From the NCBI GenBank assembly GCA_947626225.1, contig CANQRH010000003.1, positions 223,363-287,362 of the forward strand: a stretch of DNA of 64,000 nucleotides. The letters are read 5' to 3'. The translations under genes were made by a program, and so were the position numbers. The DNA comes from Candidatus Gastranaerophilales bacterium (lineage in GTDB: Bacteria; Cyanobacteriota; Vampirovibrionia; Gastranaerophilales; Gastranaerophilaceae). A model generated the notes under the pieces. The model saw only the letters and a list, made by a program, of their open reading frames with translations. It had not been told where the DNA came from and did not search any database. This document shows positions 9,485-63,044 of this stretch, one piece after another. Within the stretch, counting starts at the first letter, position 1. Each line of letters begins with the position of its first letter.

Positions 9485-9673
9485 CTACTCTAAAAGTGAT
9501 TCCAAAAGTTCGGCATTTTTAGCCGAGGATGCGGACTCGCGTACTTTTTGCTTGTAGATATAAGTTCTTAAAGCTTCGCGAATTAGTTCACTGCGTGAAC
9601 GATTTTCTCCGTCTGCGACCTGATCAATTTTGTTCAAAAATTCTTCAGGCATTGAAATAAGTACTCGTGCCAT
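9485..9673 (-). CDS. Ribbon-helix-helix (CopG/Arc-type) DNA-binding protein
   Basis: A 62-residue protein with the classic RHH fold pattern: a short beta strand (ARVLISMPEEFLNKID, residues 2-17), then helices containing the family signature NRSRSELIREALRTYI (24-39). Such proteins are dimeric repressors, often of their own promoter, of metal uptake genes or as antitoxins. There is no NikR-type C-terminal metal domain and no adjacent toxin gene, so the target is unknown. An AAGGAG site lies just before the ATG and a strong terminator follows immediately, so it is a single-gene unit divergent from pyrH. Confidence 0.85.
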   Translation of the reverse strand: MARVLISMPEEFLNKIDQVADGENRSRSELIREALRTYIYKQKVRESASSAKNAELLESLLE

Positions 9674-9896
9674 ATATTCTCCTTTTCTTTATATCAAGTT
9701 ATATTTAAATAAAAACAGAATGATTTAAAAAAGTGCTAATTTTTATTTAAAAAATATATCATCAAATTATAAAACCCTTGCGGAATGGGCATTTCGGCGA
9801 GAAAATTCATGTTTACAATACTTTACAATTATTAGTAAGACATACCGTTTACAATATACTTGTTTTGAGTTACTATAAACACAAGAGGTATCCTAA

Positions 9897-13833: not shown

Positions 13834-13992
13834 TTTATTCTCCTTTCTTTATCTATAACGGTCATGCCGCATAATTTCTTTAATGATTGTAAACTTTTGT
13901 AACAAATTTTATATAAATTGAATATAAAAAGTCAATAATTTTTTATACAAAGTTTTTATATAAATAAGAGAGAGAAAAGAGAGGCTGAGAAA

Positions 13993-14169
13993 ATGGCAAA
14001 TACACTATTATTCACTAATACAATTACCGATACATACAGACAAACATCGGATGCATTAAATTCCGTAGATTTAAAAAATAAACATGTAATAAGAAAAACG
14101 CTTGTCGAAATTATGAAGCAATCATTCTTCCATGGCGCAAGCAGATTCGGAACAAACTTTATTGCGTAG
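13993..14169 (+). CDS. Small unknown protein (58 residues)
   Basis: A short open frame from ATG 13993 to TAG 14167-14169 with a purine-rich GAGAGGCTGAG site five bases before the start. The product begins MANTLLFTNTITDTYRQTSD and ends in a basic, hydrophobic tail (KQSFFHGASRFGTNFIA). There are no Cys and no obvious membrane segment. It lies alone between two minus-strand genes and is followed within 35 bases by a strong bidirectional terminator, which suggests a real transcription unit. No homology is recognised. Confidence 0.5.
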   Translation: MANTLLFTNTITDTYRQTSDALNSVDLKNKHVIRKTLVEIMKQSFFHGASRFGTNFIA

Positions 14170-14200
14170 TTGTCGGAAATCATAGGAAATAGGAAAAATA

Positions 14201-19298: not shown

Positions 19299-19589
19299 TT
19301 AGCGGAACAATTTTTTCACTTTCGGAAAGCACAGAGCCAATACACAAGCTCCTAAAACCGCAAAGACGGATTTGGGTGTCTTGCGTTCATTTAGTTTTTT
19401 ACTTTTTTTAACCGAGTGGTAAATGTCATGTTCCAGCCTGTTAAAATTTCTTGAAGCCTGTTCATCCGAGTAAAGAACGGGTTTATAAAATCTATCCGGC
19501 GGAATTAGTATACCAACGTTCAAAGACGGGTTTTTCATATTGCTGTTCACTACACTTTCCATAATTCTGTTAAAACAAAACGCATTCAA
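19299..19589 (-). CDS. Unknown protein with a C-terminal membrane anchor
   Basis: A 96-residue frame with a C-terminal hydrophobic segment ([22 protein letters not shown], written here as residues 74-95) followed by a basic end, as in tail-anchored proteins. The middle has a charged, possibly helical stretch ([20 protein letters not shown]). Neither Met1 nor Met10 (19562) has a clear ribosome site, so the start is unsure. It is divergent from the rubredoxin operon. No family is recognised. Confidence 0.5.
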
Positions 19590-19626
19590 AAATTGCCTGT
19601 ATGTTTATTTATATTAAGCTGTGCTA

Positions 19627-48059: not shown

Positions 48060-48174
48060 AATTTTCATTAATATAAAGAAATGTAAATATGAATTTACAC
48101 ATGCTTAAAACCCTTGCTATACTTGCTCATAGCATAGCATAGCATAGCATTTTTGCGCTCTTAGCAATTATTTT
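48060..48174 (+). repeat. 115-bp promoter-bearing repeat, copy B
   Basis: Second copy of the repeat at 46696-46810, in the same orientation 1,364 bases away. It keeps TTTACA (48094-48099), TGC-TATACT (48115-48123), and exactly four AGCAT units (48131-48150). It ends 76 bases before the gene at 48251 and should be its promoter. The rest of the 325-base gap, 47926-48059 and 48175-48250, holds the hepT -10 element and an otherwise featureless AT-rich stretch. Confidence 0.85.
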
Positions 48175-48250
48175 GGCGATTTTGTTTTTACATAAGAGTA
48201 AGGGAAATAGATTTTTAAAATCAATTTAGTTAAAAAGAAAGGAAAGTATT

Positions 48251-48699
48251 ATGTCAGGAAAAGTTGCGATGATAGAATCAGGTGTTCGCGGATTTGCAAA
48301 TGCGGTAAAAAGACTTGCGGTAAAGGACAAAGAATTTGCCGAAGAATTGGTTTATATGCACGGAATCAGATCCGAAATTACTCCTAATGCATTAAAAGGT
48401 ATCACAAAGGATATGTTCAGCAGAAGTGGTAAATTAACGCAAGAAGGCAAAAAAGAAGTTGTAAGGTTGATAAAAGAGCTTAATTTGCCTAAAATGCCAC
48501 TTGGGATGATGCTCTAGCAGCAGCTAAAGCTTCTAAAGAAAAAGTCAAACAACTTATTCCTTTAACTAAATTACCGGAGCTTAAATTTAAGAATTTTAAT
48601 AAAAAAATTAATGAAATTGATAAAACATTGCTTGATAAGTTTCTTAAAGAGCAAAAAATCTCTAAAATGAATTTAGATGAATATTTAAAGAAATTTTAA
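48251..48699 (+). pseudogene. Frame-broken small gene driven by repeat B
   Basis: The frame from ATG 48251 (AAAGGAAAG site) codes MSGKVAMIESGVRGFANAVK and stops at TAG 48515-48517. A second frame, minus one relative to it, is open from 48493 and continues WDDALAAAKASKEKVKQL to a stop at 48697-48699, with equally good codon use. Joined near 48494-48515 they give one basic, helical protein of about 149 residues. A lost base is the simplest explanation; a sequence error or programmed shift is possible. No slippery heptamer is evident. Function unknown. Confidence 0.65.
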
Positions 48700-61714: not shown

Positions 61715-62842
61715 TCAGATAAGACTGTCCTTGCTAACGTTTTGTTCTACATATCCTTCATTAACCGCAAGCCATTTGAAAGCCTGATTGTCCGGTATAT
61801 CGGCAACAAAGGTTCCGCCGTATCTTCCGCGGGAAAATGTCAGATAGCCTTCTTTTGCAAGATTGTGGAATGCTTTTCTGATTGTATTAGGACTTAAATC
61901 AAGCTGTTTTGAAAGTTCATTTATTGAAGGTAGTTTTGCACCTATTTCATAATTTTCGGCAATCATTTTTTTAATGTGATTTTGAGTCTTTTCGTAATAA
62001 TAGAATGCGGCTTCCGGGGCGGGAGCAAATATGGAAGTTTCTTTTTTTAATTCTATATTTTTATCATTGGGCATTTTTAAAACGGTTGTACCGTATCTTC
62101 CGCGCCTTGCAAGTAAAATGCCTTCGTTAATTAATGATTTCAGCGCATCATGAATGGTTTTGATACTTGCCGAAAGCTTCTTTGAAAGGTGTTCATGTGC
62201 CGGTATTCTGTCACCGGTTTTGAGGTTATTTGTGATGTATTTTTTTAAGTCGTCTTCTACTTTTTTTACGAGAGTGACATTTTCTTTTATCATTTCATCT
62301 TTGGAAAAATCTGTTGTTTTAATCAATTTTTTATTTTCTCCGTTAGTTAAAATACCCGCAGATACAAGATATTCTATTGCAAGTCTTGTTGTATTTGTTG
62401 AACAGCCTGTCACCGATGATAAAATTCTGGATGAAGGTAATGCTTGACCTTCTCTTAAATTATTATCCGTAATATATTTTTTTATGGCACTGATGGCCGT
62501 TTCGCGTTTTGAAGTCAATTTTCTGAGTTGATTGGGTTTTTCACGGTTTCGGACTATTGTTCCGATGCACTGTTTTGACTCTACATATCCCATATCTTCA
62601 ATGTATCTCAATGCGTTTTGAACCGTTCCTATGCTTACACCGAGCAAATAAGCCAAATCAGGCTTTGAAGGCAGAAGCGAATCAGGGGTGATTCTGTCAT
62701 TTGAATCAATGATATTCATAAGCCACTTTGCAATTGCCGATGATTTCGGCTCCGTGCAGCTTTTCAAATCAGGCAGAGTTGTTGATATATCTGATATTTT
62801 AATCTTTTTTAAATCGGATTTTTGCTGGAGAACATAATTCAT
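61715..62842 (-). CDS. Regulator with four tandem GntR-type winged helix domains
   Basis: A 375-residue protein built from four GntR-like helix-turn-helix units (numbered with two extra upstream residues): about 35-100 (LPSKPDLAYLLGVSIGTVQN), 117-180 (LPSSRILSSVTGCSTNTTRL), 196-258 (IPAHEHLSKKLSASIKTIHD), and 287-350 (LPSINELSKQLDLSPNTIRK). The wings of units 3 and 4 share the RGRYG motif. There is no ligand-binding or aminotransferase domain. I start it at the ATG at 62842 because GAGG lies seven bases upstream, not the GTG at 62848. Function unknown. Confidence 0.8.
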   Translation of the reverse strand: MNYVLQQKSDLKKIKISDISTTLPDLKSCTEPKSSAIAKWLMNIIDSNDRITPDSLLPSKPDLAYLLGVSIGTVQNALRYIEDMGYVESKQCIGTIVRNREKPNQLRKLTSKRETAISAIKKYITDNNLREGQALPSSRILSSVTGCSTNTTRLAIEYLVSAGILTNGENKKLIKTTDFSKDEMIKENVTLVKKVEDDLKKYITNNLKTGDRIPAHEHLSKKLSASIKTIHDALKSLINEGILLARRGRYGTTVLKMPNDKNIELKKETSIFAPAPEAAFYYYEKTQNHIKKMIAENYEIGAKLPSINELSKQLDLSPNTIRKAFHNLAKEGYLTFSRGRYGGTFVADIPDNQAFKWLAVNEGYVEQNVSKDSLI

Positions 62843-63044
62843 ATACACACCTCACTAATGATACATTATTTATAAAAAAACAGCAAATATTTTTTTGCCG
62901 TTTTGTAAAGAAAATTTTACAAAAATACTGAAAATAGTGCTTTTTAGGATTTATTACGAAATGTAACAAAATATGTTAAACTTGAAATTCACTAATTTAA
63001 ATTTTTTTTATATAAGTACTGATAGAAACAAGAGGACGAGAGAG

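Follow-up and report, generated by a model that had tools for sequence, protein, structure and literature searches.

The question raised by one gene in the 64,000-nucleotide stretch of Gastranaerophilales DNA considered here (the window) is whether a single polypeptide can carry four GntR-type DNA-binding domains and nothing else and, if so, what such a protein would read. GntR proteins normally have one winged helix and a C-terminal effector or oligomerisation domain, as in the FadR, HutC, MocR, YtrA, AraR and PlmA types. The gene lies at 61715..62842 on the minus strand and encodes 375 amino acids, from an ATG at 62842 to a stop codon ending at 61715; an in-frame GTG at 62848 is a possible start. 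An earlier note on this DNA had proposed four GntR-type domains in tandem, with the reservation that only one of them might be a true helix-turn-helix. The GntR family profile (PF00392) matches the protein at four distinct places, with an overall E of 4.4e-37, and each unit was also cut out and scanned singly against the gathering cut-off of 27 bits.

All four units pass individually, which removes that reservation. Unit 1 (residues 33-100; 62543..62746, minus strand, as are the others) scores 30.2 bits and has the recognition helix SIGTVQNAL and the wing SKQCIGT; unit 2 (residues 112-176; 62315..62509) scores 28.2 bits, with the recognition helix STNTTRLAI and a wing that is lost in the window's genus. 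Unit 3 (residues 190-256; 62075..62275) reaches 37.4 bits, with SIKTIHDAL and the wing RRGRYG, and unit 4 (residues 281-348; 61799..62002) reaches 47.0 bits, with SPNTIRKAF and the wing RGRYGG, its nearest solved relatives being of the YtrA/HutC type. Profile comparison among the units finds all of them related, units 3 and 4 being the closest (E 1.3e-27) and unit 1 the most distant. It was also correctly supposed that the protein has no effector domain: no companion or effector domain is detected in the 375 residues by Pfam or NCBIfam, and 29 residues remain past unit 4. None of the NCBIfam subfamily models (PdxR, LldR, HutC and others) reaches its curated whole-protein cut-off; the best of them, PdxR, scores 133 bits against a cut-off of 320, and the score comes from the winged-helix part only.

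Structure prediction, which had been put forward as a check, agrees with the profile searches. AlphaFold2, run with 33 orthologues, yields four three-helix winged modules at approximately residues 33-98, 112-175, 191-254 and 275-346, with a mean pLDDT of 76 and a pTM of 0.44; the linkers are loose and of low confidence, and the strands of unit 3 are weak. Foldseek with this model returns the four-winged-helix end of SelB as the top match and then, among bacterial regulators, the GntR proteins YvoA, BusR and PdxR, and a sequence search of solved structures matches single GntR heads only. The protein is composed of four bona fide GntR winged helices that have diverged from one another, all on a single polypeptide, with no effector domain.

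The arrangement is found almost everywhere in the order. The window's genome has one copy of the gene, and a four-unit orthologue, nearly always single-copy, is present in 273 of 286 Gastranaerophilales-order genomes (253 of the 261 of good quality). Elsewhere in the class, orthologues occur in a further three families (f9, f14 and f15; E 1e-65 to 1e-97); families f8 and f10-f13, when searched, gave weak single-GntR matches only. The earlier note had suggested a search for orthologues with other numbers of units, and among the complete orthologues examined none has fewer or more than four. In 77 distinct orthologues the positions critical to the helix-turn-helix are kept in all four units, S70, T73, Q75, G85 and G94 of unit 1 being invariant and N150, T151 and R153 of unit 2 conserved. 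The recognition helices are nearly invariant across families and differ from one another, reading S(I/V)GTVQNA, (S/A)xNTTRLAL, SIKTVHDA and SxNTIRKA in units 1 to 4. The RGRYG wings of units 3 and 4, remarked on from the outset, are almost invariant in the orthologues, and that of unit 1 (SKQ-C/R-IGT) is nearly so; the wing of unit 2 is a basic RGNKANW in most families of the class and is lost or degraded in the window's genus. Synteny was dropped as a guide to function, because the one conserved flank (truB, an LmeA-like gene, GerMN and an 88-aa ORF; pyrH/frr in others) is common to close relatives only, and no target operon follows from it. In two genomes a response regulator adjoins the four-GntR gene (G012:C21:98187 and G016:C24:95418); it is 98.8% identical between the two genera, whereas their four-GntR proteins are only 76% identical.

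A search for a multipart operator upstream of the gene had likewise been proposed, and such an element is present. A candidate promoter/operator of 69 bp lies at 62855..62923 on the minus strand (E 1.2e-16 with R1, the sequence model of the own-gene element of the window's family, and by alignment). In that family it is nearly invariant over about 66 bp, in variable surroundings, and has the form TGTAAA..TCTTCAyAAA..GCAAAAAA..TTGATGTTTTTTTATAAATAGTGTATTATTA. Within it, the alignment defines a core, TTTGCTGTTTTTTTATAAATA, at 62867..62887 (minus strand), and a GCAA box, GGCAAAAAAATATTTGCTG, at 62881..62899 (minus strand), its distance from the core being 3 bp shorter here than at the target genes described below. 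The same stretch contains, on the minus strand, a -35-like TTGCTG (62881-62886) and a -10-like TATCAT (62858-62863), corresponding at the family level to a promoter with a -35 box TTGATG, a 17-bp spacer and a -10 box TATTAT. In the window's family conservation of the spacer exceeds that of the -10 box, which is more than a promoter alone would require. At the upstream end of the element there is an inverted repeat, TGTAAAATTTTCTTTACA (62904..62921, minus strand), found in most family members; it reads TGTAAA-N6-TTTACA, with TCTTcAyAAA variants, is absent from the target motif, and is perhaps the site of a second regulator. The equivalent operator that had been envisaged upstream of 63045 was not borne out: the match there is weak (9.9 bits at 62978, where the 95th percentile of the random 64-kb maximum is 13), and the gene concerned was rejected as a partner, having no significant site and not being a conserved neighbour.

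Beyond the window's family, an element of the form AGCA(A)-N14/15-TGTTTTAATATAAACA precedes the four-GntR gene in families f2, f3, f4, f7, f9, f14 and f15, the copies in f6 being weaker. AGCAA and TGTTTT are spaced by 19-21 bp in these other families, compared with 17 bp in the window's family. In several genomes of f9 the core is TGTTTTAATGCAAACA, a long palindrome whose GT and AC stand well away from the midpoint, although the whole site is asymmetric. Searches with R1 over 12 genomes gave one strong match per genome, always at the four-GntR gene, and with no second strong site this first suggested an autoregulator of its own gene only, a reading that was abandoned when two further models revealed a regulon. 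The second model, R2, describes the class-level elements preceding the four-GntR gene, and the third, R3, was built from R2 target sites; all three derive from genomes bearing the gene.

With R2, many full-length matches are found in genomes of f2, f3, f4 and f7, and the sites fetched are nearly all intergenic, placed before genes on the same strand and common to orthologues in two species. The 91 nonredundant sites define a composite motif, RGCAATTTTT-N10-TTGTTTTTATATAAATA-nRRR, in which conservation ends sharply on both sides and the flanks are flat; in some families the palindrome-like part is TGTTTTAATGCAAACA in place of TTGTTTTTATATAAATA. Spacing at the target sites is rigid, with 20 bp from AGCAA to TGTTTT. 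At E <= 1e-3, R3 gives 1-48 matches per genome, the motif being present in 20 of 20 tested gene-bearing genomes and in none of 18 genomes from families without the gene. Other families have tens of intergenic copies per genome, against approximately 7-14 in the window's genome (R3 at E <= 0.05 gives 9-14 sites per genome in the window's genus), and most target promoters have one site each; the earlier note had also allowed that the protein might bridge several sites. When pieces of the genome G006 were picked by position and not by motif, seven of the seven sites in them were intergenic, in sequence that is 83% coding. Within the family, motif number tends to be lower (0-6) in g17, where the protein is most diverged, a trend that is weak. 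It should be noted that the co-occurrence of gene and motif follows phylogeny and therefore represents few independent events. In two f7 genomes (G007 and G013; L159, L167-L170 and L172) a near-identical motif and flank (TTTTTTAGCACTTTTTTATG...GTTTTTATATATACATAGAGAGGAA) recurs at several places, as if a repeated element or gene family had carried it along.

There are also genomes in which the motif is present and the four-GntR gene was not found (G006, G022, G024 and G030). Three of these are incomplete, whereas G006, with about 20 motif sites, is rated 99% complete. The 94% of the G006 genome that was fetched contains no close match to the response-regulator gene found next to the four-GntR gene in two related genera, the copies there being approximately 99% identical to each other. 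The joint absence of this neighbour suggests that one missing contig or an assembly gap may account for G006.

In the window itself, sites were judged against random sequence of the same composition (64 kb, 60 trials), in which the maximum score averages 6.4 bits, has a 95th percentile of 13 and never exceeds 16.4. Three regulon-type composite sites stand above every random sequence: 9698..9742 (minus strand, 34.5 bits), 19558..19602 (minus strand, 24.4 bits) and 13926..13970 (plus strand, 23.0 bits). A weak fourth, at 48158..48202 (plus strand, 13.7 bits; R3 E 7.6e-4), lies upstream of an 88-aa ORF at 48251. Downstream of the 9698 site is a gene for a 62-residue ribbon-helix-helix (CopG-type) protein (9485..9673, minus strand; RHH_1 9.5e-10). 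The protein (MARVLISMPEEFLNKIDQ...) is approximately 85-94% identical across the family, and most family relatives have its gene directly beside the four-GntR gene, although the two are 52 kb apart in the window. The 19558 site precedes an 87-aa gene (19299..19562, minus strand), the start codon of which falls in the 3' end of the motif; its orthologues in other genomes show the same layout. The clear composite site in 13926-14170 (plus strand) is followed by a 58-aa ORF (MANTLLFTNTITDTYR...) that appears to be shortened, possibly by a frameshift or an assembly error.

Across the genomes surveyed, 107 ORFs lie downstream of motif sites and fall into 63 clusters, of which the two largest are the ribbon-helix-helix gene (11 sites, the largest) and the four-GntR gene itself. 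Other targets include an M16 peptidase, FliD and a LysM protein, and many of the target proteins tested have no Pfam match. For the M16 and 87-aa families, in several species, the last bases of the motif include the start codon. Such an overlap is seen in several gene families (in the window at 19299-19562, minus strand, and at loci L203, L206, L233, L235 and L241), an arrangement that possibly reflects leaderless mRNAs or an operator that extends across the start codon. Many of the targets without known domains (L233, L235, L241, L218, L239 and others) have N-termini resembling RINSINSVNNY..FKGN or INKISFKGN; these shared stretches are perhaps an unrecognised export or sorting signal.

On balance, we lean towards the view that the gene encodes a single-chain, four-headed GntR regulator that reads a composite site of about 40 bp, beyond the reach of ordinary GntR proteins, regulates its own gene and has a lineage-wide regulon. 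This view draws on the four bona fide units, their conserved recognition helices, the presence of the motif at the gene itself and at many others, and the co-occurrence of gene and motif. Of the long composite operator originally proposed, the multipart, rigidly spaced element upstream of 62842 has been found, shared across families and recurring before many genes; that the four-GntR protein binds it is something we infer. The four heads, each with its own fixed recognition helix, would jointly read an RGCAA(TTTTT) part and, ten bases on, the palindrome-like part (TTGTTTTTATATAAATA, or TGTTTTAATGCAAACA in some families), in a manner resembling a pair of ordinary GntR dimers but without dimerising. 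Units 3 and 4 would suit the palindrome-like part, since they are the most alike and both have RGRYG wings, and the other two units may then occupy the GCAA part. Before its own gene the protein would probably act as a repressor, because the site there, in the window's family, occupies the interval between the -35 and -10 boxes. Repression by occlusion appears the likeliest action in general, given that the own-gene site overlaps the promoter spacer in that family and that at the targets the sites are found near the gene start or across it; activation would be the alternative. The regulon would then comprise mostly exported-looking proteins of unknown function together with one small ribbon-helix-helix regulator. 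As there is no ligand domain, control is probably exerted through the level of the regulator itself or through a putative partner protein. The widest form of the proposal, to which we would give slightly less than even weight, is that an asymmetric operator of about 40 bp is read by four different winged helices in one polypeptide, with neither dimerisation nor a ligand domain, and governs a regulon across most of the Melainabacteria/Vampirovibrionia, its targets being mostly of unknown function and exported-looking.

The strongest rival, which we nevertheless consider unlikely, is that the motif is the promoter class of an alternative sigma factor and the four-GntR gene merely one member of its regulon. 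The motif has a promoter-like span and rigid spacing and a TATAAAT-like end followed by purines, and it usually lies upstream of the start codon at a distance of a few tens of nucleotides; the FliD gene is among the targets, and there are eight genes for sigma-70 region 2 proteins in the window's genome (G000, small at 1.59 Mb), a number similar across the class. Every genome counted has several sigma-70 genes (3-12), so that a sigma factor could read the motif, but as they are several in gene-bearing and gene-lacking genomes alike, such counts proved uninformative as a test. What argues against a sigma factor is the behaviour of the motif itself: the f9 core TGTTTTAATGCAAACA in several genomes lacks a good -10-like sequence and has the better symmetry, the own-gene element in the window's family is still conserved despite lying within a separate, ordinary -35/-10 promoter, and the start codon over the motif's 3' end in several targets leaves little room for a -10 box.

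Ribbon-helix-helix dimers usually read short symmetric repeats, whereas the motif is about 40 bp long, asymmetric and made of different parts; for the 62-residue protein encoded at 9485-9673 to be its reader, which would rank after a sigma factor, seems to us improbable. A search of the short flanking sequences fetched around the four-GntR gene in f9, f14, f15 and f3 also did not find its gene. This gene is, however, preceded by the motif, very conserved and the source of the largest target cluster; most family relatives have it as a neighbour of the four-GntR gene, and both it and its upstream motif are present in G006. Finally, the protein might structure the chromosome, its four heads having low specificity for AT-rich DNA, which they would bridge or coat, with the own-promoter element only the best of its sites. 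We regard this as very improbable: a protein that is normally single-copy, lacks an effector domain, is near-universal in the order and has an AT-rich core at its site could have such a role, but the recognition helices are invariant within each head and differ between heads, and the length, precision and intergenic position of the motif are unlike what is expected of coating proteins.

If the four-headed regulator does read the composite site, it would achieve high specificity within one chain, akin to eukaryotic zinc-finger arrays; bacterial regulators normally gain it through dimers that recognise a short palindrome. Within the open literature searched, this would also be the first proposal of a regulator with its operator and regulon for the gut Melainabacteria, of which there are few isolates, and the motif groups dozens of unknown genes. 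The search of that literature found nothing on Gastranaerophilales with GntR, on tandem GntR proteins or on four-winged-helix regulators.

Three known systems come closest to the protein. SelB, an elongation factor with GTPase activity, binds mRNA and has EF-Tu-like GTPase domains before its winged helices. Its C-terminal part (1lva), the top structural match, resembles the four-GntR protein in having four consecutive winged helices on a single chain; the four-GntR protein differs in that no GTPase domain is matched, all four modules being winged helices, and in that these are of the GntR type. The likeness to GntR proteins of the YtrA/HutC type (PF00392; YvoA, 4wwc/4u0y; YtrA, 6sbs) is that each unit is a GntR winged helix, and the differences are the four units in place of one, the four different recognition helices, the lack of an effector or oligomerisation domain and the asymmetry of the candidate site. 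Sites of YtrA-type GntR proteins in which GT and AC stand well away from the centre have been described, as has an additional box at 7-12 nt from GntR sites (PMC4494728). The palindrome-like core of the candidate site and its further box about 10 bp off resemble these. Set against the palindromic NyGT-Nx-ACNy operator of the family, the f9 core fits a long palindrome, whereas the candidate site as a whole is asymmetric. In BusR of Streptococcus, which combines a GntR-type winged helix with an RCK_C domain, four heads act on one bipartite site with a fixed spacing of 22 bp; four identical chains, joined by a coiled coil, make up the BusR tetramer, which c-di-AMP controls through RCK_C (PMC8517857). 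BusR is also a structural match to the model, and the candidate motif here has a rigid spacing at its targets (20 bp from AGCAA to TGTTTT), but in the four-GntR protein the four heads are in one chain and no RCK_C domain is matched by Pfam or NCBIfam. Judged by its sequence, the four-GntR regulator is a new variant within the GntR family, in which four different heads are carried on one chain.
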